A stretch of 64,000 nt of DNA from Limnohabitans sp. Rim8 (GTDB taxonomy: Bacteria > Pseudomonadota > Gammaproteobacteria > Burkholderiales > Burkholderiaceae_C). The stretch spans positions 1-64,000 of the forward strand of contig CAMDFT010000007.1 in NCBI GenBank assembly GCA_945897795.1, given 5' to 3'. The notes below the pieces were generated by a model. It made no database searches. It had not been told where the DNA came from and worked only from the letters and a program-made list of their open reading frames with translations. Shown one piece after another: positions 40,787-61,103 of the stretch. The translations under genes and the position numbers were made by a program. How positions within the stretch are numbered: the first letter of the stretch is position 1; each line of letters starts with the position of its first letter.

Positions 40787-40789
40787 GGG

Positions 40790-41656
40790 TCAAGTCCTTG
40801 TCAAGTTAAACAGTTGGGCCAGGGTCCGCCGGACCTGTACGCCGACCATTTCGCGCCGGTATGCGGCGCTGCCGCGCAAATCATCCAGAGGCGTGATGCT
40901 GGCCATGGCCGATTGAGCCGCTGATTCGATACGCTCCAAACTGGGGGCATGACCCAACAACCAGTCCTCGGCTGCTCCGATGCGCTGGGTCACGGCCACG
41001 GCGGCCCCGACCACGATGTGCGCTTGCACACACACCCCACCTTCCAGTCTGGCCACAGCCGCTACGTTGACCATCGGACGGTGTTCGGCTGCCGTGCGCA
41101 AGAAACGGTCGTAACGCCCGATCGTGCCTGGCACCCATCGCGGCACCACGATGGATTGCAGCAATTCATCCGGCTCGATGGCGGTGGTGAAATAGTCCAC
41201 TAAAAATTCCGCCATTGGCAATTCGCGCACACCTCTGTGGCTGGCCAAAACCACCCGTGCATCCAAGGCCAGCAAGCAACCCGGTGGGTCGGTGGATGGG
41301 TCTGCATAGCAAAGGTTGCCACCTAACGTGCCTTGGTTGCGCACTTGCGGATTGGCCACCCGCGCGGCCATGTCAGCCAGCATGGGGCTGTGTTGGCGAA
41401 CCTTGGGGCTCGCTGCCACCTCGTTGTGCAAGCTCAAAGCCCCCAAACGCAAGGCCCCTTGCGCATCGACTTCGAAGCCGCGCAAAGGCGCGAGTCGGGA
41501 CAGGCTCACCAAATGTGAGGGTCTGAGCATGCGTTGGCGCAGGGCCAGCATCAAGGCTGTCCCGCCGGCGATGAAACGGGCGTTGTCGCCCAAGTCCGCC
41601 GCTATTCGGCTGGCCTCGGCCACGCTGGCGGGTTCCAAATAATCCAAATCATGCAT
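40790..41656 (-). CDS. Molybdenum hydroxylase FAD subunit (CoxM type)
   Basis: 288 residues. It starts MHDLDYLEPASVAEASRIAAD and has the FAD-binding motifs ARFIAGGTALMLALR (A-G-G-T/S) and RNQGTLGGNLCYADPSTDPP (T-L-G-G-N). The C-terminal domain of the CO-dehydrogenase flavoprotein family ends in SAAYRREMVGVQVRRTLAQ. It overlaps the large-subunit gene by eight bases. Confidence 0.95.
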   Translation of the reverse strand: MHDLDYLEPASVAEASRIAADLGDNARFIAGGTALMLALRQRMLRPSHLVSLSRLAPLRGFEVDAQGALRLGALSLHNEVAASPKVRQHSPMLADMAARVANPQVRNQGTLGGNLCYADPSTDPPGCLLALDARVVLASHRGVRELPMAEFLVDYFTTAIEPDELLQSIVVPRWVPGTIGRYDRFLRTAAEHRPMVNVAAVARLEGGVCVQAHIVVGAAVAVTQRIGAAEDWLLGHAPSLERIESAAQSAMASITPLDDLRGSAAYRREMVGVQVRRTLAQLFNLTRT

Positions 41657-45070: not shown

Positions 45071-45883
45071 ATGTCTGGTACCAACAGTGTGAAATCAGTC
45101 GATGCACTCAGGCGCGGTTTGATGGTCATGCACGCCATTGAACAATCCTCGGCCGTGACCTTGGCCGAGTTGCATTTGCAATCTGGCATACCCAAGGCAT
45201 CACTTTTGCGAATCCTTAAGACTCTGATCGAATCGGGTTGGGTGGTACGAAACGAATTGGAGCGACGCTACAAGCCTGCGGCGTCGCCCGGGGATTCAGG
45301 TCCCCATACACATTGGCGCAGCCGCCTTTCAGCACTCGCAGCTCCCGTGCGGACCACGCTGGAGCGGCGCATTCCTTGGCCCACCGATCTGGCCGTGCGG
45401 GACGGTACCAGCATGCTCATCCTAGACGCTCACCGCCCCATCAATGGTCTTGCGGTCAATTACCGGGTCTTGGGTTTTCGGCCCTCTATGCTGGTTTCCT
45501 CCCTGGGTCGGTGTTACCTCGCGTTCTGCCCAGACGAGGAAAGGCGCTCATTGATTGCTCTTTTGGCCCGAACCACTGCCATGGCGCAGGACCGAACTTT
45601 TTTGCGCGAAGATGCGATCCAACGACTGATTGCAACGGGTCGTTCTCAGGGATATTGCTCACGCGACCCCTCTGAATTGGGCTCGGAGTCACCCGAACGT
45701 TTTGGTGCCATCGCTGTTCCTGTTTTTGCAGGGCGCCAACTTTTGGCATCTTTAAGTTGTGCTTGGTTACCCAGGGTCACCGACGAGCCCAGCATCGTGG
45801 CGCAATGCCTGAGTGCACTGCGTGATGCAGCGCAATTGATCGGCGAACGGGCCCTGATTTCAAATGTCAGGCCACCTGAATGA
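45071..45883 (+). CDS. IclR-family transcriptional regulator
   Basis: 270 residues. The N-terminal winged helix has SVDALRRGLMVMHAIEQSSA, then VTLAELHLQSGIPKASLLRILKTLIESGWV. The C-terminal effector domain shows RVLGFRPSMLVSSLGRCYLAFCPDEERR and RDPSELGSESPERFGAIAVPVFAG. It is divergent from the TctC/molybdenum hydroxylase operon, which it most likely controls through the palindrome at 45036-45050. The longer open frame upstream runs through tctC and is not used. Confidence 0.92.
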   Translation: MSGTNSVKSVDALRRGLMVMHAIEQSSAVTLAELHLQSGIPKASLLRILKTLIESGWVVRNELERRYKPAASPGDSGPHTHWRSRLSALAAPVRTTLERRIPWPTDLAVRDGTSMLILDAHRPINGLAVNYRVLGFRPSMLVSSLGRCYLAFCPDEERRSLIALLARTTAMAQDRTFLREDAIQRLIATGRSQGYCSRDPSELGSESPERFGAIAVPVFAGRQLLASLSCAWLPRVTDEPSIVAQCLSALRDAAQLIGERALISNVRPPE

Positions 45884-47054: not shown

Positions 47055-47093
47055 CCATTGCCTATTCACCCTCTTCATACGGAGTACGCTGCC

Positions 47094-47327
47094 ATGGCAC
47101 ATCACCCTGCTGCGCTTTACAACGAAACCCATCAAGCGCGTTCGGCGGCGCCCACCAGCTACGAAAGCTTGTTGGGCGATTCGATAGAGCGCGCCTTTGC
47201 CTCAGGCATCCAAGACCTGGGCGGGCTGGTCCAGTACCTGAACACCGCTGGACCGTCCGGCCCCAATGGCCAGCCCTGGACGCCTGAGACCTATCGGCAA
47301 GAGATGGCCCGTTTGGCTGCCGCCTGA
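47094..47327 (+). CDS. Small recombinase-HTH-like protein of oxygenase clusters
   Basis: 77 residues. The second half, AFASGIQDLGGLVQYLNTAG, then GPNGQPWTPETYRQEMARLAA, resembles the helix-turn-helix in the recombinase domain of serine recombinases (the region that reads ...LN..G....G..W....). The first half (HQARSAAPTSYESLLGDSIER) is also recognisable in homologues I recall from oxygenase clusters. There is no catalytic domain. It could be a small regulator or a partner of the Rieske enzyme; no function is established. GGAG lies upstream, and the Rieske gene starts 20 bases later. Confidence 0.65.
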   Translation: MAHHPAALYNETHQARSAAPTSYESLLGDSIERAFASGIQDLGGLVQYLNTAGPSGPNGQPWTPETYRQEMARLAAA

Positions 47328-47347: not shown

Positions 47348-48379
47348 ATGAACGCCCAAGTCATCAACGTTCAACTGGACCCTGTCGATGCCGCCCTGGA
47401 AGTCGGTTTGAAAGACCTGTGGTTTCCGGTCTGTCCCTCTGGATTTGTGAAGGACAACCCGGTTTCGCTGCGCCGTTTGGGCTACAAAATTGTGCTGTGG
47501 CGCGATGCCACCGGCCAAGTTCATGCGCTCGAAGACCACTGCCCACACCGTGGGGCACCGCTGTCGTTGGGGGTGATTTTGGGTGACCGCATCGCCTGCC
47601 CATACCACGGCGTGGAAGTCCGCCACGACGGTACCGTGATGCGCGTGCCAGGCAGCCCGGGCTGCAAGCTTGAAGGCTCGCGCCCCACCCGCAGTTTTCA
47701 CACCGCCGAATCGAACGGCGCCATCTTTTTGTTCAATGCCAGCAACCCGGCACTGGACAAGGCACCAGCCCTGCGATTGCCAGAACAGCTGACCTCGCCA
47801 GAATGGTCATCCTTTCTTTGTTACACCGAATGGGGCGGTGACTACCGCTACGTGCTCGACAACATCATGGACCCGATGCACGGGGCCTACCTGCACAAAC
47901 AGTCGCACACCATGGCCGAGGGCGACATGACGGCAGAGTTCCAAATCCGAGACATCGAACATGGCTTCATCTTTGAAAAAAAGCACCAACGCGATGTGAA
48001 TTTCGATTGGACGGAGTGGATGGACAACGACATCCACCTGATGCGACTGGAAATTCCTTATCCCAAAACCGGTGGCCCGGGCGGCAACTTCTCCATCATT
48101 GGCAGCTACACCCCCATCACCAACCGAGTGGCAGCCGTCTTCCACTGGCGCTGCCGCAAGGTCGAGGGTTGGCAACGCGACACCTGGCGTTTTTTGTACA
48201 AAAACCGTTTGGAGCAACGCCACTGGAACGTGCTCGAGCAAGACCGCGTCGCGGTTGAAAACATGGAACCTGACGCCAACAAGCGCGAGCACCTGTACGC
48301 CCACGACATGGGCATCGTTCGGCTGCGCCGCCACCTGCGCAAGCTGGCCACCGAACAACTGAACCAAGCCAACGCCTGA
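47348..48379 (+). CDS. Rieske non-haem iron oxygenase, VanA/TsaM/DdmC-like
   Basis: 343 residues, the size of the VanA (vanillate O-demethylase) class. The Rieske cluster is in LEDHCPHRGAPLSLG (C-x-H) and RIACPYHGVEVRHDG (C-x2-H) at about residues 60-95. The catalytic iron motif is YVLDNIMDPMHGAYLHKQSH (D-x2-H-x4-H, about 168-187). Single-subunit enzymes of this type hydroxylate or O-/N-demethylate aromatic compounds. AAGGA precedes the ATG. The reductase gene starts one base after the stop. Confidence 0.93.
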   Translation: MNAQVINVQLDPVDAALEVGLKDLWFPVCPSGFVKDNPVSLRRLGYKIVLWRDATGQVHALEDHCPHRGAPLSLGVILGDRIACPYHGVEVRHDGTVMRVPGSPGCKLEGSRPTRSFHTAESNGAIFLFNASNPALDKAPALRLPEQLTSPEWSSFLCYTEWGGDYRYVLDNIMDPMHGAYLHKQSHTMAEGDMTAEFQIRDIEHGFIFEKKHQRDVNFDWTEWMDNDIHLMRLEIPYPKTGGPGGNFSIIGSYTPITNRVAAVFHWRCRKVEGWQRDTWRFLYKNRLEQRHWNVLEQDRVAVENMEPDANKREHLYAHDMGIVRLRRHLRKLATEQLNQANA

Positions 48380-48380
48380 C

Positions 48381-49337
48381 ATGAGCACCTTGAAAGCCTG
48401 GGTGCACACCCTGAAGTATGAAGCCCAGGACATCATCAGTGTTGAATTGAGATCCATGGCGGGCGAGGCCCTGCCTGCGTTTGAGGCCGGAGCCCACATC
48501 GACCTGCACTTGCCCGGCGGCCTGGTGCGCAGTTATTCGCTGGCCAATGACAGCCGCGAGCGACACCGTTACCTTTTGGGCATCCTCAAGGACAAAGCCA
48601 GTCGAGGCGGTTCTCGTTCTGTGCACGAGCAACTGCGTGTGGGCATGGCGCTGACCATCAGCCCACCCCGCAATAACTTTCCTTTGCACGAGGAAGCAGA
48701 CCACTCTGTACTGATTGCAGGTGGCATTGGCATTACGCCCATCTTGAGCATGGCACAGCGCTTGCAGGCACTGGGGCGTTCATTGGAGGTGATTTACTTG
48801 GCGCGATCACGCACCGCTGCTGCATTCATTGACACCCTGTCAGCGCTGGCATGTCCGGTGTATTGGCATTTCGACAACGAAGCTGGCGGGCCCCCGGACT
48901 TGAAAGCCTTGTTGGCCCAGCGCAGCCCCCAGGGCAACACCCATTACTACGCTTGTGGCCCGGCCCAGATGCTCGATGCATTCGAAAAAACCTGCACCGA
49001 ACTGACTTACGCCAACGCCCACATTGAGCGATTTGCGGCGGTCGAGGTGAAGGCTGCAAACGATGCGCGCCAACAATTCACCGTTGAGCTGCGCAAGAGC
49101 CAAAAAACTTTTGAAGTCACGGCGGACACGTCTGTGCACAAACAACTGCTGACACTGAAAGTCAATGTGCCCTTCAGCTGCGAAGAAGGCATTTGCGGCT
49201 CCTGCGAAACACGCGTGCTAGAAGGCACACCCGACCACCGGGACATGGTGCTGAGTGCTTCCGAACAAGCCAGCAACCAAGTCATGATGGTTTGCGTTTC
49301 GGGTTGCAAAAGCGAGCGGTTGGTGCTGGACCTTTGA
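48381..49337 (+). CDS. Phthalate dioxygenase reductase-type ferredoxin reductase
   Basis: 318 residues. The flavin domain has VRSYSLANDSRERHRYLLGI (R-x-Y-S-L), the NAD domain has VLIAGGIGITPILSMAQRL, and the C-terminal plant-type [2Fe-2S] domain has VPFSCEEGICGSCETRVL plus a cysteine in MMVCVSGCKSERL. This is the VanB/TsaB/PDR layout (FMN-NADH-2Fe2S). It supplies electrons to the Rieske oxygenase encoded immediately upstream. The operon then meets the FAD monooxygenase operon tail to tail. Confidence 0.95.
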   Translation: MSTLKAWVHTLKYEAQDIISVELRSMAGEALPAFEAGAHIDLHLPGGLVRSYSLANDSRERHRYLLGILKDKASRGGSRSVHEQLRVGMALTISPPRNNFPLHEEADHSVLIAGGIGITPILSMAQRLQALGRSLEVIYLARSRTAAAFIDTLSALACPVYWHFDNEAGGPPDLKALLAQRSPQGNTHYYACGPAQMLDAFEKTCTELTYANAHIERFAAVEVKAANDARQQFTVELRKSQKTFEVTADTSVHKQLLTLKVNVPFSCEEGICGSCETRVLEGTPDHRDMVLSASEQASNQVMMVCVSGCKSERLVLDL

Positions 49338-49371: not shown

Positions 49372-50517
49372 TCAGGCCGATACAGGCACCACCCAAGCAT
49401 CGTACCCATACACACCATCGGCATTGCCCTGGGTTTTCATCCATTGATTACCGCGAGAACCGATCTGAATTTCAGCGGTGCGTGCCTGTCGGGCTACTGC
49501 GTAACGCTGCAAAGCCGGCGCGACATCATCCAATTGATGCGCCTGTGCCAGGCAACGCGCCACCACCACACCGTCTTCGATGGACATACCCGCGCCTTGC
49601 GCCATGAAGGGCAACATGGGGTGGCAAGCATCACCCAACAGGCTCACACGGCCTACCGACCATTGCGGCAGTGGTTCACGCTCGTACAAAGCACTTTTGA
49701 GCACGCTGTCACAAGCGTCCAGCAACGCACGCGCATCCGGGTGGTAGTCGCGGTAAAAGCTGCGCAACTCATTCACGTCGCCCGGGCTGGTCCAGGACTC
49801 CTCCTGCCAGGAGTCTTGCCCCGTGGTGGCAAAAATGAAGGTGTCCTGACCGCGATTGAGCGGAAAAGTCACGATCTGGCTTTGCGGGTTGGGGCCCCAC
49901 CATTTGGTGAAAGCTTCGATCTCTGGCACCTGCCGGACCTTGTCGGTGGGCACCACAGCACGAAAAGACACCACCCCCGTGAAACGGGGTTGCTCTTCAC
50001 CAAACAAAGCCGCGCGAACCTTGGAGTGGATGCCATCGGCGCCCAATACCACGTCGTGCAGGGCTTGCTGCCCATCTTCAAACACCAATTGCACACCCGC
50101 ATCACTTTGGCTCAGGCTGCGCAGACGTTTGGAAAAAACGACGCAATCGGCGGGCACGGCACTGGCCATGACCGCCAATACATCGGCCCGGTGAATCGTC
50201 AGCTGTGGCGCGCCGTAACGCCGCTCGGCCGTATCACCCATGGGCAGGCGCGAGGTCTCCAGCCCAGTGTCCCAATCACGGCTAATTCGAAAAGTCGGGC
50301 GTGCGCCGCTGGCACGAATGCCTTGCGCCACCGCATCACCCAGACCATCGAGGGCACGCACCGCATTGGGCGTGAGGTTGATGTCCGCGCCCACACGCAT
50401 GAATTGCCCAGCCTGCTCGTAGACCGTGACCTTGTGACCTTGCGCACGCAAGGCGATGGCAGCCGTCAAGCCGCCAATGCCAGCTCCCACAATGCCAATG
50501 TTCATGTGAAACGCCAT
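49372..50517 (-). CDS. FAD-dependent aromatic hydroxylase similar to 6-hydroxynicotinate 3-monooxygenase (NicC)
   Basis: 381 residues of the p-hydroxybenzoate hydroxylase-type fold. FAD-binding motifs are NIGIVGAGIGGLTAAIALRA, VVLGADGIHSKVRAALFG and VSLLGDACHPMLPFMAQGAG. LTIHRADVLAVMASAVP, FTKWWGPNPQSQIV and the tail VYGYDAWVVPVSA resemble what I remember of NicC and its relatives. The enzyme should decarboxylate and/or hydroxylate a phenolic or hydroxypyridine acid. ATG at 50517 follows AGGAC by nine bases; an ATG four codons later is possible. Last gene of the 12-gene leftward operon. Confidence 0.85.
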   Translation of the reverse strand: MAFHMNIGIVGAGIGGLTAAIALRAQGHKVTVYEQAGQFMRVGADINLTPNAVRALDGLGDAVAQGIRASGARPTFRISRDWDTGLETSRLPMGDTAERRYGAPQLTIHRADVLAVMASAVPADCVVFSKRLRSLSQSDAGVQLVFEDGQQALHDVVLGADGIHSKVRAALFGEEQPRFTGVVSFRAVVPTDKVRQVPEIEAFTKWWGPNPQSQIVTFPLNRGQDTFIFATTGQDSWQEESWTSPGDVNELRSFYRDYHPDARALLDACDSVLKSALYEREPLPQWSVGRVSLLGDACHPMLPFMAQGAGMSIEDGVVVARCLAQAHQLDDVAPALQRYAVARQARTAEIQIGSRGNQWMKTQGNADGVYGYDAWVVPVSA

Positions 50518-50563
50518 GTTCAAGTGTCCTGAAAAATGAAACCTGTTGTGGGCCAACGGCCAG

Positions 50564-51343
50564 TCAAAAGACGCCGGGGAAGGAACCACCGTCGAGCAAT
50601 ATGTTCTGCCCATTGATGTACCCGGCATGCACGCTGCACAAATAGGCGCAAGTGTTGCCCAGCTCATCGGGGCGACCAAAGCGGTGGGCCGGGTGCTTGA
50701 CCAGTCGAGCCGCGATGGCCTGCTCTGCCGTGATGCCCTGGCGTGCGGCTTGGGCCGCAAAGTTACCCGCCAAACGTGCGGTGTCAAAGGTGCCCGGCAA
50801 GAGGTTGTTGATCGTCACGCCTTGTGCCACGGTGGTGCGCGCCAGGCCAGCCACAAAGCCCGTCAACCCACTGCGGGCGCCATTGGACAGGCCCAGGCCA
50901 TCGACCGGAGATTTGACGGCGCTGGAGGTGATGTTGACGATGCGCCCAAAACCTCGCGCCATCATGCCGTCCACCGTGGCCTTGATCAACTCAATGGGTG
51001 CCAGCATATTGGCCTCGATCGCACGCACCCAAATGTCACGGTCCCAGTGCCGGAAGTCCCCCGGCGGCGGCCCTCCCGCATTGGTGACCACAATGTCAAA
51101 GTCTTGTTGCACCTCAAAAATTTTTGCACGCCCAGCTTCGGTGGTCACATCAGCGGCCACACACTGCACGGCGCCAGCAGCCTCTTGACGCAAGCGATCA
51201 GCGGCGGCCAGCAGAGGCGCTTCGGTGCGCGCCACAATCAACACATCCGCCCCTTCACGCACCAGCGCCTGCGCGCAGGCCAAACCCAGGCCAGCGCTAG
51301 CGCCGCACACCAAAGCTTTTTTTCCGGCAATGCCCAAGTCCAT
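50564..51343 (-). CDS. SDR-family oxidoreductase with altered active site
   Basis: 259 residues. NAD(P) motif ALVCGASAGLGLACAQALVREG and N-A-G motif IVVTNAGGPPPGDF are typical. The catalytic serine is in IVNITSSAVKSPVDG, but the YxxxK motif is replaced by SNGAR in GLGLSNGARSGLTGFVAGLA. This is seen in an SDR subgroup described as 3-oxoacyl-ACP-reductase-like. The end NGQNILLDGGSFPGVF is ordinary. Activity may rest on a different base or the protein may act otherwise. It sits 46 bases before the FAD hydroxylase. Confidence 0.85.
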   Translation of the reverse strand: MDLGIAGKKALVCGASAGLGLACAQALVREGADVLIVARTEAPLLAAADRLRQEAAGAVQCVAADVTTEAGRAKIFEVQQDFDIVVTNAGGPPPGDFRHWDRDIWVRAIEANMLAPIELIKATVDGMMARGFGRIVNITSSAVKSPVDGLGLSNGARSGLTGFVAGLARTTVAQGVTINNLLPGTFDTARLAGNFAAQAARQGITAEQAIAARLVKHPAHRFGRPDELGNTCAYLCSVHAGYINGQNILLDGGSFPGVF

Positions 51344-51414
51344 GGGTTCAGTCCTTTTTTGCGTTGTGGTTCGATGGGTTCAGGCTCAAGCCCGTCCATG
51401 CACGGGCCAAGATT

Positions 51415-52890
51415 TCATGCGCTGGCCCAAGGCATGGGGGCGGCGTTCATGCCCCAGTAAAAACTTTTCTGTGTGGTGTATTCCAAAATGCCTTGGCGGC
51501 CTTTTTCGCGGCCTGTACCACTGAGCTTGACACCGCCAAAGGGCGTGCTCACCGAGAACAGTTTATAGGTATTGATCCACACCGTGCCGGTGTGCAAAGC
51601 CCGGCCAATGCGCCAAGCGGCTTTGTAGTCACGCGTCCAGATGCCCGAGGCCAGGCCGTAGTCGTTGTCATTGCATTGCGCGATCAGGTCGGCCTCATCG
51701 CTCCACGGCAACAAGGCCAGCACCGGGCCAAAAACTTCTTCGCGGCACAAGCGGGCGGTGTTGGGCAGGCCTTCGATGACGGTGGGCAAGTAATAACTGC
51801 CCTGCTCGTAATAGCCGCCTTGTGGTCGCGCACCACCACACAGAATTTGGCCACCTTCATCACGACCGATTTGCACATATCGTTCAACTGAATCGCGGTG
51901 GCCTCGGTTGACCAAAGGCCCCATGTGGGTACTTTCAAGCGACGGATCGGCCACACGCAAACCCTTGACCGCAGCCAACAAGCGCGACTTGAACTCGTCA
52001 TACAACGAGGCATGCACAAAGGCCCGCGAGCCCGCAATGCAGGACTCACCCGATGAGCTGAAGATCCCGTAAATCACCCCAGCGACCGCGTGGTCGAGGT
52101 CGGCATCGGCGCACACGATGGTGGGCGATTTACCGCCCAGCTCCAGCGATGTCGGCATCAATTTTTCAGCGGCCAGGCGCTGAATACCCATGCCGACCGA
52201 GGTGCCGCCGGTAAATGCAATGCGCTTGACCAGCGGGTGGCGCACCAGCGCGTCTCCCACCACAGAACCTTTGCCCGGCAGCACACTCACGATGCCATCG
52301 GGCACACCCGCTTGCTGCGCAATGCGGGCCAGCTCGATCGCCATGCGCGGCGTGATCTCGGCCGGTTTGATGACGATGGCACAACCTGCAGCCAAAGCCG
52401 GGGCCATTTTTTGAGCCTCACTGGCAATGGGCGAGTTCCAAGGCGTGATGGCACCGACCACGCCCAAAGGCTCGTGCACGCTCATTGTGAGGAAGTCCCC
52501 ACGCGTGGGCGTGACCGCATCCTCCCAGGTCTCGGCCGTAGCGGCAAAGTACTGGAACGTCCCCGCAGCACTGGCCACCAGGGCGCGGCATTCCTTGATG
52601 GGTTTGCCGTTGTCCAAGCGCTGCAATTGCGCCAAAGTTTCCGATTGTTCGCGGATGCCTTGGGCGATCCGGTGCAACATGCCTGCGCGCTCATGGGGCA
52701 TGAGGCGAGCCCACGCGGGCTGCAAGCGCGCTTGCTCGGCCGTCTGAACGGCCTCGTCCACATCGCCCACTGTTGCTGCATGCAACTGGGCCACTGCCGA
52801 GCCATCGTGCGGGTATTCGGTTGCATAGGCAGGTCCTGAGGCATCACGCCAGCGGCCCGCTAGCAAGGTCTGGATTTTTTCAGTCATCAA
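51415..52890 (-). CDS. NAD(P)-dependent aldehyde dehydrogenase
   Basis: 491 residues. The active-site glutamate is in PTSLELGGKSPTIVCADAD, the catalytic cysteine in SSGESCIAGSRAFVHASLYD, NAD binding in TPWNSPIASEAQKMAPAL and FTGGTSVGMGIQ. The C-terminal end (FGGVKLSGTGREKGRQGI, then YTTQKSFYW) is standard. It would oxidise an aldehyde made earlier in the pathway. It follows the aspartate dehydrogenase gene by 12 bases. Confidence 0.93.
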   Translation of the reverse strand: MMTEKIQTLLAGRWRDASGPAYATEYPHDGSAVAQLHAATVGDVDEAVQTAEQARLQPAWARLMPHERAGMLHRIAQGIREQSETLAQLQRLDNGKPIKECRALVASAAGTFQYFAATAETWEDAVTPTRGDFLTMSVHEPLGVVGAITPWNSPIASEAQKMAPALAAGCAIVIKPAEITPRMAIELARIAQQAGVPDGIVSVLPGKGSVVGDALVRHPLVKRIAFTGGTSVGMGIQRLAAEKLMPTSLELGGKSPTIVCADADLDHAVAGVIYGIFSSSGESCIAGSRAFVHASLYDEFKSRLLAAVKGLRVADPSLESTHMGPLVNRGHRDSVERYVQIGRDEGGQILCGGARPQGGYYEQGSYYLPTVIEGLPNTARLCREEVFGPVLALLPWSDEADLIAQCNDNDYGLASGIWTRDYKAAWRIGRALHTGTVWINTYKLFSVSTPFGGVKLSGTGREKGRQGILEYTTQKSFYWGMNAAPMPWASA

Positions 52891-52902
52891 TGTGGCTCCG
52901 GG

Positions 52903-53697
52903 TCAGGTGGTCAAGCTGGCCGTGCGGTTGTTCAGAAAGCGCACAGCGGACAGGACCGTGAGAGCCGACGTTTTGGGGTTGTCAGCTAAGGGCTTGCCAC
53001 GCAAGCGCAGCTGCATCTCACCAAAAGCGCCCTTGGCCTCAAATTCATGGATGTTCTCGGTCACACCCGGGTCGGCGATCAGGCGCACGCGGGTGCGGTC
53101 CAGCCCCACACCGGCCAAAGACAGGGTGGCGGCCACATTGGCATTCTTGGGGTACAAGCGGGCCGCTTCGCGGGCTGTGGCATCCAGAATAACTGTGGGT
53201 TCCGTCAATGCATCCAGGTTGACCAGCTGCTCGGCTGGCGAGCCACGCCAGCCCGCAGGCGGCTTGCGACCAATGTAGGTCACGCTGTCCAGCCCGGCTT
53301 GGCGTGCCGCCGAAATCGCATCGATACCGCCTATGGCACCCGCCAGCAGGTGCAACTGTGTTCCCCCCTGCTCGGCTGCAGCTTGCAGCTGTTCGGGCAA
53401 GCCCGGTTCAGCCAACGCGCCGATCGACAACACGGCGCACTCGGTGCCGCGCCGCAAAGCTGGCAACACATGCGAGGTCAAGGCCGTGTGGCCAGCGCAC
53501 TCCAGCACCAAGGGCGTTGCCTCTGGCACTTGGTGCGTCACCGTCACGCCCAAGCCCAATTCGGCCTGCAAAGCAGCCACTTGGGCCTCTGACACCACGA
53601 TGTGCGTGATTCGCACCCCCACATGCCCCAGCATGCGCTGGTAAACAGAACGGCCTATGGCGCCAAATCCAATCAGGGTCAGTTCCTGGGTGCGCAT
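52903..53697 (-). CDS. L-aspartate dehydrogenase-like protein (NadX family)
   Basis: 264 residues. N-terminal Rossmann domain LTLIGFGAIGRSVYQRMLGH. The family domain shows LHLLAGAIGGIDAISAAR, YIGRKPPAGWRGSPAEQ, the catalytic-type histidine region and PKNANVAATLSLAGVGLDRTRVRLIADPG. NadX makes iminoaspartate from aspartate with NAD(P). In catabolic clusters the family may instead handle another amino acid or imine. It is sandwiched between ThDP-enzyme (three bases upstream) and aldehyde dehydrogenase genes, a combination that does not match NAD synthesis. Confidence 0.85.
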   Translation of the reverse strand: MRTQELTLIGFGAIGRSVYQRMLGHVGVRITHIVVSEAQVAALQAELGLGVTVTHQVPEATPLVLECAGHTALTSHVLPALRRGTECAVLSIGALAEPGLPEQLQAAAEQGGTQLHLLAGAIGGIDAISAARQAGLDSVTYIGRKPPAGWRGSPAEQLVNLDALTEPTVILDATAREAARLYPKNANVAATLSLAGVGLDRTRVRLIADPGVTENIHEFEAKGAFGEMQLRLRGKPLADNPKTSALTVLSAVRFLNNRTASLTT

Positions 53698-53700
53698 GGC

Positions 53701-55365
53701 TCAGTCCGTCTTTTTTGGGGGGCCGGCAAACTTCACAGCAAACGCGCCCCAGGCGGCCATGTCCACCTCGACCACCACGGGGCCAGGGGTCTGCAGGGCC
53801 TGCTGCAAAACGGCGTCGGTCTGCGCCGGATCGCTGAGCTTGTGGTGCGCCACCTGCAAGCTGGCGCAAAACAGCGCAAAGTCCGGGTTGTGCAATTCCA
53901 CATAGCAATGTCGACTGCCATACACGGCGTCCTGAATGTTTTTGATCACGCCATAGCGGCTGTCGTTCATCAGCAAAATCAACATGTCGGCGCGCTCTTG
54001 CGCCGCGCAGGCCAACTCGCCCACGTTGAGCATGAAGCCACCGTCACCCGCCATCACCACCGTCTTGCGCCCCAGAGCATGTCCATGATTGGCCAGCGCC
54101 ACACCAATCCCCATGGCCAAGCCTTGCCCAATGCCGCCGCCCAATGCGTGCACGCCCGCACGCGGGTGGTCCAGCACCGGTGCACGGTTGCCCCACATGG
54201 TGTTGGACAAGGTGATGTCACGCACCCACCACAGGGCTTTTCCGGTCGCAGCTTGCAGGCTGTTTTTGAGCTTGACGTAAGGCCCCAAAGTGCTGTCCAC
54301 CAAGGCCTCGGCTTCACGCCGGGCATTTTTCAGATCCGTCAAAAATGCCGGATCGGTCTGCATCCGGCCCTCCAGCGCATCGGCCAGCGCGTTCAGGGTC
54401 AAGGCCGCATCGCCCTGCACAAAATAGTCACTGCCGTAGGCACGGTTTTGGGTGAGTGCGTTGGCGTCTATGCGAAAACGATGCTCTGGCAGTTGCAATT
54501 TGTAGGTCAGCGTTTCATTGCTTCGCAAACGCGAGCCCACCACCAGCAAGGCGTCAACGCTCTGGTAAAAAGCCTCGCTGGGTTTTTGCAGGTTGTACGA
54601 ACCCAGACTGGCAGGGTGGTCTTCGGCCAGCACGCCGCGCCCCTGCACCGAAGTGACCACACCCCATCCCATGGCCACTAGGCGCTGCACAGCAGGCCCG
54701 GCACCACGGGCACCGCCACCGAGCCACAACAAGGGCCGCTTTTTAGATGCCAACAGATCGGCCAAGGTCTGCACAGCACTGGGCGCAGGCACCAGCGGGG
54801 CGACCGGCCATGGCATCAGATCAAGGGGCAAAGGCAAGCGCATGGCCTGCACATCGATCGGAATTTCGATGCTCACTGGGCCGCAAGGCGGTGTGAAAGC
54901 CAGTCGCACTGCTTCGCGCAAAGTGGCCAGTGCAGTCTCGGGATTGCGGATTCGAAAAGCCTCCTTGCCCACCGACTTGAGCATGGCCAGCTGCGCCGGA
55001 TGCTCATGGATGAAGCCAAGATCGCGATCTAGGAACTCCGACTCGATCTGGCCAGTCAGGTGCAACAACGGCGTGCCTGCCGTGATGGCCTCCACCATGG
55101 CCCCCGCCGCGTTGCCGCAACCGGTTCCGGTACTGGTCACGCACACGCCCAGCACGCCACTCACGCGGGCTGCGGCATCGGCCATGTTGCAGGCGCCAGC
55201 TTCCCCACGTGCCGAGACAAAACGTATCTGTCCACGCGTGTGGAAGGCATCCAGGATCGGCATGTTGTGGATGGAGATAACACCATAGGCGGTTTTCACA
55301 CCACAGGCTTCCAGAAAACGGGCGACCAATTCGCCCACGGTGATGCTGTCAGAAGACGAGTTCAT
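53701..55365 (-). CDS. Thiamine-diphosphate enzyme of the acetolactate synthase/benzoylformate decarboxylase type
   Basis: 554 residues. The activating glutamate is in FVSARGEAGACNMADAAARVSG (about 53). The ThDP-magnesium motif is VMAGDGGFMLNVGELACAAQ, with MNDSRYGVIKNIQ after it (about 440-475). The central FAD-like domain is present (RPLLWLGGGARGAGP), though FAD need not bind. Function may be decarboxylation or carboligation of a 2-oxo acid. It overlaps the iclR stop by four bases and is three bases from aspartate dehydrogenase. The reaction is undefined; substrate context suggests an aromatic degradation intermediate. Confidence 0.9.
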   Translation of the reverse strand: MNSSSDSITVGELVARFLEACGVKTAYGVISIHNMPILDAFHTRGQIRFVSARGEAGACNMADAAARVSGVLGVCVTSTGTGCGNAAGAMVEAITAGTPLLHLTGQIESEFLDRDLGFIHEHPAQLAMLKSVGKEAFRIRNPETALATLREAVRLAFTPPCGPVSIEIPIDVQAMRLPLPLDLMPWPVAPLVPAPSAVQTLADLLASKKRPLLWLGGGARGAGPAVQRLVAMGWGVVTSVQGRGVLAEDHPASLGSYNLQKPSEAFYQSVDALLVVGSRLRSNETLTYKLQLPEHRFRIDANALTQNRAYGSDYFVQGDAALTLNALADALEGRMQTDPAFLTDLKNARREAEALVDSTLGPYVKLKNSLQAATGKALWWVRDITLSNTMWGNRAPVLDHPRAGVHALGGGIGQGLAMGIGVALANHGHALGRKTVVMAGDGGFMLNVGELACAAQERADMLILLMNDSRYGVIKNIQDAVYGSRHCYVELHNPDFALFCASLQVAHHKLSDPAQTDAVLQQALQTPGPVVVEVDMAAWGAFAVKFAGPPKKTD

Positions 55366-56192
55366 GCGATTTTCTTTTCCTTGGACTTGGCCGACGATGC
55401 ACCGCGCTGGGGCGAATGGCTCAAACGTTCTGTCAATTGGGCTGCTGCAGCTTTCACCATCTCCACAAGAGGCATCAATGCCTCATCTTCGATGCGCTGT
55501 GAAGGCACCGAAATGCTGATGGCTGCAGTGACTCGGCCTTGCTCATTGAAGACCGGCGCGGCAATGGTGGAAATGCCGGTTTCGTACCCCCCCATGCTCA
55601 CGCCATAACCTTTGTCACGGTCCTGGTCGATCAAGGCCTTCAGGTCCTGCAAGTTGGTCGGAGTTTTGGGGGTGTACACAGGCAGCACTTTTTCAGGATA
55701 AAGCGCAGCCAAGTCTTTCAGCGCCAGATCGGACAGTAAGATTCTGCCCAACACGGTCGCGTGCGCAGGCAAGCGCGCGCCCACCTGAATCGAGTGGAAC
55801 ATGGCGTTACCCCCTGCAGCCTTGGCGACGAACACCACATCGCGGGCATCGCGCACCACCACATGGGCCGAAAAACCGCTTCGGTCACGCAAGGCTTCGA
55901 TCACCGGACGCCCCACCTCGGTCAGCTCCATGGAGGCGAGCAATTCAAACCCCAAACGCAATACAGCCAGGCCCAATTTGTAGCTGACACCATCAGGGCA
56001 GCGCTCCAAAAATCCGCTTTGCTCCAGCGTGAACAGCATGCGAAACACCGAGGCGCGAGGCAAACCCATGCGACGCGAAAGCTCGGCACCGCTCAGTTCC
56101 CGTTCATCTCGATTGAATTGCATCAGCAACTGCAGGCCGCGCGCCAAGCCAGGTACGGTGTAACGGTCTTCGTTTTGAGGCTTGTCGTTCAT
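55362..56192 (-). CDS. IclR-family transcriptional regulator inside the operon
   Basis: 276 residues. N-terminal winged helix: YTVPGLARGLQLLMQFNRDE, then LSGAELSRRMGLPRASVFRMLFTLEQSGFLER. Effector domain: VEFVAKAAG-like VVFVAKAAGGNAMFHSIQVGARLPAHATVLGRILL and YGVSMGGYETGISTIAAPVFNEQGRVTAAISI. The tail is lysine-rich. It is co-transcribed with the ABC importer genes upstream and the catabolic enzymes downstream, so it is the prime candidate for binding GTTTC-N6-GAAAC in front of both operons. ATG at 56192 avoids overlap with the hydrolase. Confidence 0.93.
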   Translation of the reverse strand: MNDKPQNEDRYTVPGLARGLQLLMQFNRDERELSGAELSRRMGLPRASVFRMLFTLEQSGFLERCPDGVSYKLGLAVLRLGFELLASMELTEVGRPVIEALRDRSGFSAHVVVRDARDVVFVAKAAGGNAMFHSIQVGARLPAHATVLGRILLSDLALKDLAALYPEKVLPVYTPKTPTNLQDLKALIDQDRDKGYGVSMGGYETGISTIAAPVFNEQGRVTAAISISVPSQRIEDEALMPLVEMVKAAAAQLTERLSHSPQRGASSAKSKEKKIA

Positions 56193-56199
56193 GTCACGT

Positions 56200-57048
56200 T
56201 CATCCCAATCCGCCCAAAGCGGGCAGACCCAGCAATTCATTCACAGCCTCGGCAGCCTCCAAGGGGCATGCATGGCCCACAGGACCCAAACTGATGCGCT
56301 TGGCGGCTGCATCCTGGGCCACTGCACCGCAATTCGCGGGCGTTGTCACCGTGTCGGCTTCGCCACTGGCTACCCAAACAGGACAAGCCACAGTTTTAAG
56401 GTCTTGCGCCAAACAGGCCTGCCCCAGCATTTGCACCGCCTGGGCGTAGCCTGCCGGGTCAATTTGGGCCATGGTCTCTCGCACAGCCTCTTGCAGCGCA
56501 GGCGCAGCACCGGGCGACAACATGGCGGCTGCCCGAGCCGTAGCCATGCCATCGGGGCCGAGCTGCTGCAAATTGCTCAGTCGGCCTTGCACCACGCGTT
56601 CGCGCTCAGCCAAAGGTGCATCACCGTAGCCTCGGGCAGGTGCCAACAAAACCAAACGGCTGACGGCCCGAGGGCGCAAGCGCGTGGCACTGGCGGCCAT
56701 CAAGGCCCCCAAAGAATGCCCTGAGAGCACCACGGGCTGATTCACATACAAGGCATCCAACCACGACCACAGGCGCTCGGCGTAGTCCTGCGCACTGGGC
56801 AACTCCATGGGCAAATGCGTGCTGCGGCCATACCCCGGCGCATCCCAAGCCAGCACCCGCACATCGCTGCGGCCCACCGCCGATCCCAGCTGAAAAGCCC
56901 AACTGGCCGAGGCCGAGCCGATGCCGTGCAGCAGGACATGCGTGACCTGCGGGGCCATACCGGCACTGCGAAACTGCACCTTGCCGTGCGCGGTGTCCAC
57001 GGTGGACCGCACCACGCCCGACAAAGCATCCGAGGGGGTGAGGTTCAT
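56200..57048 (-). CDS. Alpha/beta hydrolase
   Basis: 282 residues. Oxyanion region VLLHGIGSASASWAFQL, nucleophile elbow LSGHSLGALMAASA (serine about 111), acid near VWVASGEADTVTT, and histidine in SLGPVGHACPLEAAEAV. The set is complete. Family members in catabolic operons hydrolyse C-C bonds of ring-cleavage products, lactones or amides. Its place directly after the cupin gene (one base apart) suggests they act on successive intermediates. Confidence 0.9.
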   Translation of the reverse strand: MNLTPSDALSGVVRSTVDTAHGKVQFRSAGMAPQVTHVLLHGIGSASASWAFQLGSAVGRSDVRVLAWDAPGYGRSTHLPMELPSAQDYAERLWSWLDALYVNQPVVLSGHSLGALMAASATRLRPRAVSRLVLLAPARGYGDAPLAERERVVQGRLSNLQQLGPDGMATARAAAMLSPGAAPALQEAVRETMAQIDPAGYAQAVQMLGQACLAQDLKTVACPVWVASGEADTVTTPANCGAVAQDAAAKRISLGPVGHACPLEAAEAVNELLGLPALGGLG

Positions 57049-57049
57049 G

Positions 57050-57655
57050 TCAGCGCTTGATTTTGGACAAAGGCGAATCGGGCGGATACACCGGCGTGAT
57101 CGGCTTGGGGGTGCCCAGCATCACGCACATCAGGGCGTCCTCGTCGCCGACATTCACCTCTTCGCGGTACACGCCAGGCGGCACCGAAATCAGGTCCCGC
57201 TCGCCGAGCGTGGCTTCCCAGCGTTCGCCGTCCTTTTCGCAAACAACCTTCATGGTCCCGCGCAACACAAAAAAGATTTCTTCTACGTCGTAATGGATGT
57301 GCGATGGCCCAATACCCCCAGCCGGAATCAACATGGTGGAAAAGGTGAAGTGGCCTGAGGGCACGGTGTTGCCGTCTTTGGCGACGCCCGTGGCACCGGT
57401 GCCCACATAACGCATTTGGGCTCGGCGGTATTTGGGGTCAAAGTCCGCTTGGAACTTCAATGCATCCCAGTCGTAACGACGGGTCGACTTGAGCGCCACA
57501 CGGCTTTGCATCCAATCGGCAAAGGACTGGCCGCTTTGCTGCAGCATGCCCGCCTGAATTTGAAGCTCAGGCGGAATTTGGGCATTGAGCAACCCGTTTT
57601 CATTGAAGTGCGGCTGGTTGGCAGCCTCCAAAACTTTTCTCGCGTGTGCGTCCAT
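57050..57655 (-). CDS. Cupin-domain protein, possible metal-dependent dioxygenase or isomerase
   Basis: 201 residues. A single cupin barrel at about 85-185: GGIGPSHIHYDVEEIFFVLRG holds the H-x-H and E metal ligands, and LISVPPGVYREEVNVG is the second motif region, where the last histidine is replaced. The N-terminal 80 residues are helical (AHARKVLEAANQPHFNENG, SFADWMQSRVALKSTRRYDW). The enzymatic role is unknown. It may bind Fe or Mn through two histidines and one glutamate. Confidence 0.82.
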   Translation of the reverse strand: MDAHARKVLEAANQPHFNENGLLNAQIPPELQIQAGMLQQSGQSFADWMQSRVALKSTRRYDWDALKFQADFDPKYRRAQMRYVGTGATGVAKDGNTVPSGHFTFSTMLIPAGGIGPSHIHYDVEEIFFVLRGTMKVVCEKDGERWEATLGERDLISVPPGVYREEVNVGDEDALMCVMLGTPKPITPVYPPDSPLSKIKR

Positions 57656-57670
57656 GGTTTTTCCTATTTG

Positions 57671-58420
57671 TTAATGCATGACAAAGCCGCCGTTGACCGG
57701 CAACAACTGACCCGTGATGAAGCCACTGCCCTGGGTCAACAGGAACAAGGCGGCGGCGTTCACGTCCTCTGGTATTTGAGTGCGCTGAATGGCGCGTCCG
57801 TTCAGGTAATGGTCGTGACGGGCTTGCGGCACGTACTCGGTGGCCTCCACCAGAGTCAGGCCCGGTGCAATGGCGTTCACCGTGATGGCATCGCCGCCCA
57901 TCTCTCGGGCCAAAGACCGCGTCATGGCGATCACGGCCCCTTTGCTTGCCGCATAAGCGAGCAAACGAGGAGCGCCCCACAAAGCCGTGTCCGAGGCCAA
58001 ATTGACGACCCGTCCACGACCGCTGGCCGCCAGATGCGGCTTGGCCGCCTGGGTCACCAACCAAGTGCCGCGCACGTTGACGTCCATCACGCGGTCCCAC
58101 ATGTCGAGCGCCAACTCGTCCATGGTCTTACCGCCTGAATTGGTGATGGCGGCGTTGTTGATCAGGCCCGTCATGCCGCCCATGGCCAATGCAGCCGCAT
58201 CGACCCCGGCACGGATGCTGGCCGGGTCCAACAAATCCAGGGGCACGTAGGCGGCCAGTGGACCCAGTTCAGCGGCCAGGGCTTGGCCGCGTTCGTGCAG
58301 CACATCGCTGATGGTCACTTGGGCACCTGCGGCCACCAAAGCCCGGGCAAAGCTCTCACCCAAACCTCGGGCTGAGCCGGTGACCAACACTTTGCTGCCC
58401 TGAAGATTGATTTCTTGCAT
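57671..58420 (-). CDS. SDR-family NAD(P)-dependent dehydrogenase
   Basis: 249 residues. Start GSKVLVTGSARGLGESFARALVAAG, N-A-G motif in LINNAAITNSGG, catalytic serine in VNLASDTALW, and YxxxK in LAYAASKGAVIAMTRSLA: all present. The end GFITGQLLPVNGGFVMH is standard. It would oxidise an alcohol or reduce a ketone. ATG at 58420 has GAAAG before it; a longer reading overlaps the permease gene. Confidence 0.93.
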   Translation of the reverse strand: MQEINLQGSKVLVTGSARGLGESFARALVAAGAQVTISDVLHERGQALAAELGPLAAYVPLDLLDPASIRAGVDAAALAMGGMTGLINNAAITNSGGKTMDELALDMWDRVMDVNVRGTWLVTQAAKPHLAASGRGRVVNLASDTALWGAPRLLAYAASKGAVIAMTRSLAREMGGDAITVNAIAPGLTLVEATEYVPQARHDHYLNGRAIQRTQIPEDVNAAALFLLTQGSGFITGQLLPVNGGFVMH

Positions 58421-58433
58421 GCTGGACTTTCTT

Positions 58434-59213
58434 TCAGGCACCGTTGCGTTGGGCATTTACCAGGTAATGCAAGACTCTGTTTTCCGCAAGCACCACCGCG
58501 TAATAAGCCAAGATGCCGATGACTGTGAGTGCACCAATGACCACAAAAACTCCCGCCGTGTTGCCCTGGCCCTCAAAGAAAACCAGCAAAAAGCCAAGAC
58601 CCATGTTGCCGCCTACCAACTCCCCCACCACGACCCCGATCACCGCCAAAGTGCTGGCAATGCGCAAGCCGGAAAACAGCGGGGGCAAGGTGGTCGGGAA
58701 CTCGACCATGCGAAACACTTGGAAACGCGTGGCCGAAAAGGACCTGGCCAGGTTGATCAAATCGCCATCCATGGCACGCATGGCCGACAACACATTGATC
58801 AGCACCGGGAAGAACACAATCAGCACCGCCACCAAGATCTTGGGGTAAATGGTGTAGCCCAGCCACATCACAAACAAAGGCGCAAATGCGACCTTGGGCG
58901 CAATTTGCAGTGCCAACAAGTAGGGCGACAAAATGGCTTCAACCCTTGGAGAAACTCCCAAGGCATAGCCGATGACGGCACCCAAAAACGAACCCAACAC
59001 AAAGCCGATCACCACCTCGGCCGCCGTGATGCCGGCATGCCACATCAAGCGCTCGGTTTCCCAAATCCGCACAGCTTCCGTCAACACTTGGCTGAAAGGA
59101 GGCAGCACGAATTTGGGAACATCCAGCCACCCCGGGACAAACTCCCAAACAAGCAGGAACACCACCAAAACGGCCACACTCCAGGCAGAGGTTGTCAGTT
59201 TTTCATGGGACAT
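58434..59213 (-). CDS. ABC transporter permease (SsuC/TauC type)
   Basis: 259 residues, about six membrane segments. The coupling region is NLARSFSATRFQVFRMVEFPTTLPPLFSGLRIAS (EAA-type loop). Other family parts: VGELVGGNMGLGFLL and VIGYALGVSPRVEAILSPYL. It forms the channel of the importer with the ATPase and binding protein upstream. Related systems carry aliphatic sulfonates, taurine, nitrate, pyrimidine precursors or phthalate. Confidence 0.92.
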   Translation of the reverse strand: MSHEKLTTSAWSVAVLVVFLLVWEFVPGWLDVPKFVLPPFSQVLTEAVRIWETERLMWHAGITAAEVVIGFVLGSFLGAVIGYALGVSPRVEAILSPYLLALQIAPKVAFAPLFVMWLGYTIYPKILVAVLIVFFPVLINVLSAMRAMDGDLINLARSFSATRFQVFRMVEFPTTLPPLFSGLRIASTLAVIGVVVGELVGGNMGLGFLLVFFEGQGNTAGVFVVIGALTVIGILAYYAVVLAENRVLHYLVNAQRNGA

Positions 59214-59251
59214 TTTCAATCGTTCACTGCTTGTTCAGGGAGTTCAATGGC

Positions 59252-60262
59252 TCATTTGCCCATCACGAACTGGTTGGTATACAGCTCTTTGGCAGGGTTT
59301 TCCTTTGGCACCACGCCATTGCTGACATAGAACTTCTGCAACTCGTTCAATCGAGCTTCGTCCATTTGGCCGGGCACTTTTTGACTGGCATAAACGTACT
59401 TGTTGTACATCTCAAAAACTCCCTGAATATTGGCTTCTTTGCCTTGGTGAGCTGGTACATGTTTGACATACGCAATGGCCGAATCCTTGGGATTGGTCAT
59501 GATGTCCTTCATCCCTTTAAGCGTGGCGCGCACAAGCTTCTGGATCAACTGGGGATTTTTCTGGATGGTCTCGTCAGAAGCCAAAATCGCTTGTGCCATG
59601 CTCTTGAAGTACACATCAGCGGGCAAGATGTCCACTTGGGCTCCGGCCCCCATGGCAGAAGCTGTCCAGTCGGGCACACCCGCCATGGCCACTGATTTTT
59701 TGGCTGCAAATTGTTGCCAAACGCCAGCAGGACCCGCCGCCTGAATGGTCACGTCATTTTTGGTCAGCCCCACTTTGCTCAGCATGCCCAGCAACGCGTA
59801 GTAAGTGGTGTCAGTGTAAGAAATGACCGTCACTGTTTTGCCTTTGAGCTCTCTGGGGCTCTCAATGCGTTCGTCTTTATGACTGACCAACTGGGTCAAA
59901 GAACCCGCACCCAGAACAGCCACAGCCTTGACGGGGATGCCCTGGGCACGGGCGATGATGGGTGTGTCTCCAATGGCGCCACCAATCACAGCGTTGCCAG
60001 CGCCCACCTGTTTGGCCACGTCCACGCCTCCGCGGGCGGTCACAAATTTCACATCCAGGCCTTCGGCTTTGTAATAACCCTTGGCTTGCGCCAGCATCCA
60101 CGGCCCAAATGCCGGCAAAGTGCCCGGCGCGGGCAAGAGGTAGGTCACCTCCTGAAGGGGCGCTTGCGCCTGAACGGCTGACGGCATCACCGTGAGCATG
60201 GCTGAAGCCATTAGGCTCACACAAGTCAAACGTTTGCTGATCATCAAAGTGCTTTTTTTCAC
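59252..60262 (-). CDS. ABC transporter substrate-binding protein (SsuA/NMT1-like)
   Basis: 336 residues. Signal peptide at the start (SKRLTCVSLMASAMLTVMPSAVQAQA, cleavage near residue 35), then QEVTYLLPAPGTLPAFGPWMLAQAKGYY. Ligand loop: VKFVTARGGVDVAKQVGAGNAVIGGA. GTG at 60262 is chosen because GGAG lies seven bases before it; an ATG six codons later has no SD. It delivers the pathway substrate. Its ligand is unknown, but aromatic acids are bound by close relatives. Confidence 0.9.
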   Translation of the reverse strand: MKKSTLMISKRLTCVSLMASAMLTVMPSAVQAQAPLQEVTYLLPAPGTLPAFGPWMLAQAKGYYKAEGLDVKFVTARGGVDVAKQVGAGNAVIGGAIGDTPIIARAQGIPVKAVAVLGAGSLTQLVSHKDERIESPRELKGKTVTVISYTDTTYYALLGMLSKVGLTKNDVTIQAAGPAGVWQQFAAKKSVAMAGVPDWTASAMGAGAQVDILPADVYFKSMAQAILASDETIQKNPQLIQKLVRATLKGMKDIMTNPKDSAIAYVKHVPAHQGKEANIQGVFEMYNKYVYASQKVPGQMDEARLNELQKFYVSNGVVPKENPAKELYTNQFVMGK

Positions 60263-60296
60263 AGTCGTCTCCAGTTGGTTTTCAGGGTCAAAAAAA

Positions 60297-61103
60297 TCAG
60301 TGCATTTGGGTGTGCGCATCGAGCTTGAGGAGCTCCATCAGGCGGCTGACGTAATCCGCCAATTTGGGATGCTTGCGCCGCTGCATCGGGTTGTCCCGGT
60401 CAGGAATGTCGACCACAATTTCCTCGATCATCGTGCCGGGCCGCTCACTCATGACCAAGATCCGGTCCGACAAAGCCACGGCTTCGGCCAGATCGTGGGT
60501 GATGAACACCACCGTTTTGCCTTCGCGCTCCACGGTTTGAGCCAGGTCCTGCTGCAGGATCATTTTGGTTTGAGCATCCAGCGCGGAAAAAGGTTCATCC
60601 ATCAGCAGCACCAAGGGGTCAACCGCCAAGGTGCGCGCCAAAGCGGCGCGCTGTCGCATGCCACCCGACAATTGGTTCGGGTAATGCTCACCAAAGCCCT
60701 TCAGGTGGCATTGCAGGAGCAAACGCTGGGCAATGGCTTCACGTTCAGCGCGCTGCACACCGCGCAACTCCAGGCCGAATGTCACGTTTTCCGTGATCGT
60801 GCGCCACGGCATAAGCAGATCTTTTTGCAGCATGAAGGCCACGTGTTTGTTGGGTCCGGCCACCACTTCACCATTGACCTTGACCACGCCTGCAGAAGGC
60901 TTGGACAGCCCTGCGCCCATGTTGAGCAACGTGCTTTTGCCGCAACCTGAAGGACCAATGATGGACACCACCTCGCCCTTGGCAATGGCGAAATGGATAT
61001 CGCGGGCTGCCAACACCTCGGCAGACTTTCCGCGTGCGGCAAACCGCTTTTCCACCCCGATGAATTCAATCGCCGGGATTCTAGACTCGGGTGTGATACT
61101 CAT
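60297..61103 (-). CDS. ABC transporter ATP-binding protein (SsuB/TauB type)
   Basis: 268 residues. Walker A IIGPSGCGKSTLL, Q-loop FMLQKDLLMPWRT, signature NQLSGGMRQRAALARTLA, Walker B LVLLMDEPFSALD and switch VFITHDLAEAVAL are intact. First gene of the 12-gene leftward operon. The dyad GTTTC-N6-GAAAC lies only six bases upstream of its ATG, and TATAGT inside that dyad is the likely -10 for leftward transcription. Confidence 0.94.
   Translation of the reverse strand: MSITPESRIPAIEFIGVEKRFAARGKSAEVLAARDIHFAIAKGEVVSIIGPSGCGKSTLLNMGAGLSKPSAGVVKVNGEVVAGPNKHVAFMLQKDLLMPWRTITENVTFGLELRGVQRAEREAIAQRLLLQCHLKGFGEHYPNQLSGGMRQRAALARTLAVDPLVLLMDEPFSALDAQTKMILQQDLAQTVEREGKTVVFITHDLAEAVALSDRILVMSERPGTMIEEIVVDIPDRDNPMQRRKHPKLADYVSRLMELLKLDAHTQMH

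Follow-up and report, generated by a model that had tools for sequence, protein, structure and literature searches.

A 77-amino-acid (aa) protein encoded in a stretch of Limnohabitans sp. Rim8 DNA (GenBank assembly GCA_945897795.1, contig CAMDFT010000007.1, positions 1 to 64,000 of the forward strand; hereafter the window, 64,000 nucleotides (nt) long) probably serves one clade of VanA-type Rieske oxygenases as a non-catalytic accessory subunit. The protein consists largely of a recombinase-like helix-turn-helix (HTH) domain, HTH_62, and its gene precedes that of the oxygenase alpha subunit by 20 nt. An accessory subunit is favored because the two proteins are naturally fused in one genus and co-occur one to one in the genomes searched. 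Regulation, the other role that the earlier note on this sequence had considered beside a small accessory subunit, is disfavored because the stand-alone proteins are acidic without exception (72 of 72), whereas recombinase-type copies of the domain are basic.

Co-occurrence of HTH_62 with one type of Rieske oxygenase

A search of genome contigs with the 77-aa protein found 67 relatives of 49-95% identity, and in all 67 loci the gene directly downstream encodes a Rieske oxygenase with 68-98% identity to that of the window. The extradiol-type gene of the window (at a minimum of 59% identity) and its reductase gene are each matched in 64 of these loci, and its IclR gene is matched in two. In whole-genome samples, co-occurrence was judged without using gene position. 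HTH_62 is present in 15 of 150 genomes of the family, and the window-type Rieske oxygenase (E ≤ 1e-60) is found in exactly those 15. The phylum sample of 398 genomes contains 29 with an HTH_62 match; 15 of them score at least 40 bits, and these are exactly the 15 genomes with a Rieske match at E ≤ 1e-50 (weakest match 2e-96). The other 14 score at most 31.4 bits, seven of them above the family cut-off of 27, and the one-to-one match in this sample holds once HTH_62 matches below 32 bits are disregarded. Of 289 additional genomes (the class of genome G153), 20 have HTH_62 matches, 14 of them above the cut-off. Because the thresholds were of our own choosing and the genomes are related, no probability is quoted for the co-occurrence.

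Pooling all loci gave 136 called genes, of which 106 are distinct when compared over their final 180 nt. The fused L122, L137 and the single gene of L132/L159, for which no start codon could be located, were not counted. Every one of these 106 stand-alone genes has the same type of Rieske gene downstream of it in the same orientation. HTH_62 is the direct upstream neighbor in 97 of them (median gap 20 nt, maximum 172; Rieske identity 40-100%), and in the remaining nine the two genes are 2.2-2.7 kb apart, with an ABC-importer cassette between them. Viewed from the Rieske side, the window-type oxygenase occurs in 39 of 399 family genomes and is preceded by HTH_62 in all 39, three times as a fusion and once (L198) as an HTH_62 stump where the contig begins. 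The association with ring-hydroxylating oxygenases that the earlier note described as conserved is thus evident from both directions in the genes and genomes counted. That the L159/L132 frame is a solitary HTH_62 copy was ruled out, as a Rieske gene (51% identity) lies directly behind it. The Rieske gene in G924:C154:3789-4792 (-), locus L214, matches as two pieces in different frames, which points to a frameshift or to a faulty assembly. No match to the window Rieske protein is present in five listed genomes from the genus of the window (G087, G837, G909, G971 and G1028), so that the HTH_62/Rieske trait is patchy within this genus.

Relatives were also found in 15 plasmid records, five of which were examined in detail. 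HTH_62 lies between a Rieske ferredoxin gene and the oxygenase alpha gene in the Caballeronia NK8 plasmid, between a hypothetical gene and alpha in the Caballeronia M1242 plasmid, and between a reductase-like gene and the Rieske gene in a Streptomyces plasmid; in a Novosphingobium resinovorum plasmid it overlaps the start of alpha by four bases.

Natural fusion of HTH_62 to the oxygenase

In genome G029, a single frame of 462 aa contains both the HTH_62 and the Rieske domains. The fused gene is present in three of the five genomes of genus g30, each time as one uninterrupted frame, the other two being 86-88% identical to the query; these three are the only fused cases among the 39 Rieske-bearing family genomes. 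A Pfam scan of one of the three fusions (G029) recovered HTH_62 (78.2 bits), Rieske and VanA_C, with HTH_62 and Rieske above their cut-offs. The linker, at about residues 71-103, is proline-rich with a conserved PALPPA stretch. Its ratio of nonsynonymous to synonymous substitution rates (dN/dS) is 0.12-0.21, which indicates that it is translated, and selection spans both the HTH_62 domain and the linker. Within the linker there is no in-frame ATG, but one stands a few codons ahead of it and a TTG is found close to where the Rieske part begins; initiation inside the fused frame is therefore conceivable. No other single finding speaks as strongly as the fusion for an action of the small protein on the oxygenase or together with it.

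Reading frame, family and selection

The HTH_62 gene runs on the forward strand from ATG 47094 to a stop codon at 47325-47327; a longer frame from a TTG at 47058 is likewise open. A profile search with the 77 residues matched residues 8-76 to PF20552 (HTH_62, "Recombinase-like helix-turn-helix domain") with 103.9 bits (E 4.6e-30) against a cut-off of 27, and the likeness to a recombinase HTH noticed earlier is therefore contained in Pfam's own name for the family. This is the only PF20552 match in the source genome, and no NCBIfam family matches the protein. Across eight orthologues, dN/dS is 0.059-0.111 for the 77-aa gene and 0.023-0.068 for the Rieske gene; the former range indicates that the small gene is translated and under selection. 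Homologues are known in equivalent clusters of named alpha-, beta- and gammaproteobacteria and Streptomyces, one such host being Pseudomonas fluorescens FW300-N2E3 (locus L061), and seven of the 15 plasmid-record relatives, at 31-61% identity, carry the RefSeq product name "recombinase-like helix-turn-helix domain-containing protein". The earlier proposal of a translated frame with homologues beyond its own cluster is in agreement with these values, as is its remark that no recombinase is nearby: none is encoded among the genes annotated at 44-61 kb of the window, the span that the annotation covered.

Charge and the conserved arm

In a set of 72 non-redundant stand-alone proteins of 71-108 aa, every member is acidic, with a net charge of -2 to -10 (-3 for the window protein) and a median isoelectric point of 4.9, and the HTH cores alone carry -1 to -9. 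Weak HTH_62 matches are basic in all 20 printed segments (+1 to +7), the comparison being made on segments of unequal length. Sixteen of the 20 weak-match frames resemble resolvases or large recombinases by eye, while the printed parts of L102, L108, L139 and L142 show no recombinase likeness; L140 and L141 were left out. Five of the 16 were confirmed by Pfam, all five having a Resolvase catalytic domain (four from the 398-genome phylum sample, where the check covered four of the 14 weak-match-only genomes, and one from the 289-genome sample). The HTH_62 profile thus reaches serine recombinases at 20-30 bits, and two of the five resolvase proteins exceed the cut-off. At L139:805-1791 (-), a basic recombinase-like HTH segment precedes a methyltransferase domain in one 329-aa frame (Pfam), and L142:1408-2379 (+) has a segment similar to that of L139 near its frame start.

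A conserved N-terminal arm of about residues 1-21 precedes the HTH in the stand-alone family. Q14 is invariant in the alignment of the 72 proteins, R16 and E24 are conserved in at least 90%, and the invariant or near-invariant columns include neither cysteine nor histidine. Of the 19 weak rows in the phylum sample, 14 have a match that starts after profile position 20 and so leaves out the arm. The charge indirectly suggests that the stand-alone proteins do not bind DNA, although an acidic charge is no proof of this.

Predicted structures

AlphaFold2 models the 77-aa protein (67 alignment rows) with a mean predicted local distance difference test score (pLDDT) of 86.8 and a predicted template modeling score (pTM) of 0.69, placing helices at residues 22-36, 42-52 and 64-76; the first 20 residues, with pLDDT 58-72, form a poorly ordered arm. 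Foldseek returned nothing at E ≤ 0.001 for this model, and all VIA matches are weak, with Z below 4, values that are common: AsiA 3.9, sigma chains 3.5-3.6 and PhiC31 integrase 2.9, the best extending over 56 residues at a root-mean-square deviation of 2.4. Sequence searches of the PDB gave matches at chance level, the best E being 0.23 for the single protein and 0.27 for a 67-row profile; because they gave no similar chain, no solved Rieske enzyme was found to carry HTH_62.

The natural fusion was modeled from 79 rows, 17 of which pair two separate genes by reading one stop codon as W, a modeling device. Its mean pLDDT is 90.8 and its pTM 0.90, with residues 75-81 below 50, and its Foldseek matches are Rieske oxygenases, among them SxtT/GxtA and dicamba monooxygenase. 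HTH_62 and the linker make up 99 of the 427 modeled residues. Because simple arithmetic gives an expected pTM of about 0.77 for an unplaced HTH_62, the observed value suggests that AlphaFold places the domain on the fused oxygenase with fair confidence.

Alternative explanations

The small protein could instead be a maturation or assembly factor, a chaperone that aids folding of the alpha chain or loading of its iron centers and then leaves the finished enzyme. Its small size and acidity, its constant company of the same alpha chain, which it directly precedes in 97 of 106 cases, and the poor order of its arm when modeled alone would all suit such a factor. A permanent fusion to alpha in one genus fits a lasting subunit better, however, and the conserved columns offer neither cysteine nor histidine, so we consider a transient chaperone unlikely. 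A role of the protein as DNA-binding regulator of the cluster, either by itself or jointly with the oxygenase as a trigger enzyme, would accord with its recombinase-like HTH family, its three predicted helices and the weak structural matches (Z at most 3.9) to AsiA, sigma chains and PhiC31 integrase. This appears improbable given the charge of the stand-alone proteins and of their cores as against the basic weak matches. Moreover, the clusters that were annotated in detail have IclR regulators within them or alongside, and HTH_62 tracks the oxygenase (67 of 67 loci) rather than the window IclR gene (2 of 67). It is most improbable that the protein serves another enzyme of the pathway, for example the importer ATPase or the ring-cleavage enzyme: HTH_62 does directly precede an ABC ATPase gene in all nine separated cases and in L217, but the fusion is with the Rieske protein, which is the direct neighbor in the other 97, and the extradiol gene falls short of the Rieske gene in the loci searched (64 against 67 of 67).

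Several points also weigh against an accessory subunit. The fusion was met in a single genus, and a fused DNA-binding domain can yield a bifunctional enzyme-regulator, as in PutA and NadR. No PDB chain resembled the small protein in the sequence searches, and the pTM argument is indirect, being drawn from the overall pTM of a single fused chain without its partner oligomer. Importer genes part HTH_62 from the Rieske gene in nine of the 106 genes and in L137/L217, and the adjacency of the two is therefore not absolute.

Gene cluster, importer cassettes and electron donors

The features of the cluster are collected in Table 1. The 318-aa reductase is presumably the electron donor of the Rieske oxygenase. 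Matches of the extradiol-type protein to HpaD and catechol 2,3-dioxygenase in NCBIfam are weak and under the cut-off. The opposite-strand genes comprise an FAD monooxygenase, SDR, ALDH, aspartate dehydrogenase, thiamine pyrophosphate (TPP) enzyme and second IclR, together with an alpha/beta hydrolase, cupin, SDR, NMT1-type binding protein and ABC ATPase. The HTH_62 clusters examined have many gene types in common, drawn from a set of IclR, VOC, FAD monooxygenase, SDR, ALDH, aspartate dehydrogenase, TPP enzyme, hydrolase and cupin; a literature search on this gene set found no relevant publication, judging by titles and the openings of abstracts. Molybdenum-hydroxylase-type genes, recognized by eye, stand beside the cluster at 39547-43940 (-) of the window, and such genes also occur in a distant bacterium at L163:10160-13775 (+), where the large gene has MoCoBD domains (Pfam). 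Because they adjoin the cluster in two distant bacteria, the substrate of the pathway is perhaps N-heteroaromatic, which is a hint from gene content.

Table 1. Features of the HTH_62 gene cluster in the window
Feature	Position	Strand	Basis
IclR-type regulator, 270 aa counted from ATG 45071	45071..45883	+	Pfam HTH_IclR/IclR_C
Extradiol-type VOC dioxygenase (glyoxalase fold), 321 aa	46089..47054	+	Pfam PF00903
GGAG, Shine-Dalgarno-like, 9 nt 5' of ATG	47081..47084	+	sequence
HTH_62 protein, proposed accessory subunit	47094..47327	+	Pfam PF20552, 72-protein alignment, AlphaFold2 model, dN/dS
Rieske oxygenase alpha subunit, 343 aa (Rieske + VanA_C), proposed partner	47348..48379	+	Pfam PF00355, PF19112
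Reductase, 318 aa (NAD-binding + 2Fe-2S ferredoxin)	48381..49337	+	Pfam
Opposite-strand genes of the same catabolic cluster	49372..61103	-	Pfam for 10 of them
ALDH	51415-52890	-	by eye

ABC importer genes between HTH_62 and the Rieske gene were seen in L146, L147, L150, L156, L157, L158, L160, L161, L163 and L217. For some clusters the genes were listed with a crude caller based on GC bias; a tblastn check of the separated cases placed an ABC ATPase gene directly after HTH_62 in nine of nine and also found a binding-protein match in six. L137 ends at a contig edge with no Rieske gene within its 1.6 kb; in the complete contig (L217), ABC genes lie next to HTH_62 and the Rieske gene follows about 2.9 kb downstream. 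The intervening importer genes may either have been inserted there or have been lost elsewhere. A Rieske ferredoxin gene precedes HTH_62 in L152, L153, L125, L127, L154 and L156, whereas in the window an NAD/2Fe-2S reductase gene follows the Rieske gene; one oxygenase clade has thus apparently exchanged its electron donor. HTH_62 stays with the alpha chain whether the adjoining donor gene encodes a VanB-type reductase or a Rieske ferredoxin and, being found beside both, is linked to the oxygenase rather than to either donor.

Proposed mode of action

As an accessory subunit, the small protein would be a third component besides the oxygenase and its electron donor. It may dock on the alpha chain through the conserved arm (Q14, R16) and the helical core and remain bound as a stoichiometric partner, where it would stabilize the alpha oligomer or aid its assembly and possibly shape the docking site of the electron donor. 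The HTH_62 fold would have a common origin with the tail by which serine recombinases bind DNA, but would have lost DNA binding itself. A bolder version, which we hold to be rather doubtful, is that a recombinase-type DNA-binding domain was recruited to aromatic catabolism, lost its basic surface and turned into an obligate third subunit by which a new subclass of Rieske oxygenases is set apart; its acidic face and arm would lie near the donor site and gate electron delivery, and it would have been kept despite the swap between VanB-type reductase and Rieske ferredoxin.

Relation to known systems

By its Pfam score the window protein is a member of HTH_62, a family whose name implies DNA recombination; its stand-alone members are instead acidic and tied to a Rieske oxygenase. 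With the C-terminal HTH of small serine recombinases (Resolvase PF00239 / Recombinase PF07508) it has the core pattern LN ... G ... W in common. Unlike small serine recombinases, the 77-aa protein has no PF00239 match and thus no catalytic resolvase domain; it is acidic and lacks the basic HTH segment typical of serine recombinases, and it bears the additional arm with Q14 and R16. The small (beta) subunits of alpha3beta3 ring-hydroxylating dioxygenases are also non-catalytic and encoded beside alpha; they are about 190 aa long, have another fold and are encoded after alpha. The HTH_62 protein would likewise be a small non-catalytic partner encoded next to alpha, but members of the family have 71-108 aa, are helical, are encoded before alpha and accompany alpha chains of VanA_C type; the relatives of these chains with solved structures (DdmC, SxtT) are known as alpha-only enzymes. 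The HTH_62 family is already present in Pfam and RefSeq, while a literature search on the protein or the pathway found no publication among the papers listed, as far as titles and the openings of abstracts tell. What is new is its putative assignment, through fusion and co-occurrence, as a dedicated small component of one Rieske oxygenase clade.

Rieske oxygenases start the breakdown of many aromatic compounds and are used as biocatalysts. A component missed owing to its database name could explain the failure of such an enzyme when it is expressed alone, and the family apparently provides a clear case of an HTH-type fold reused away from DNA.
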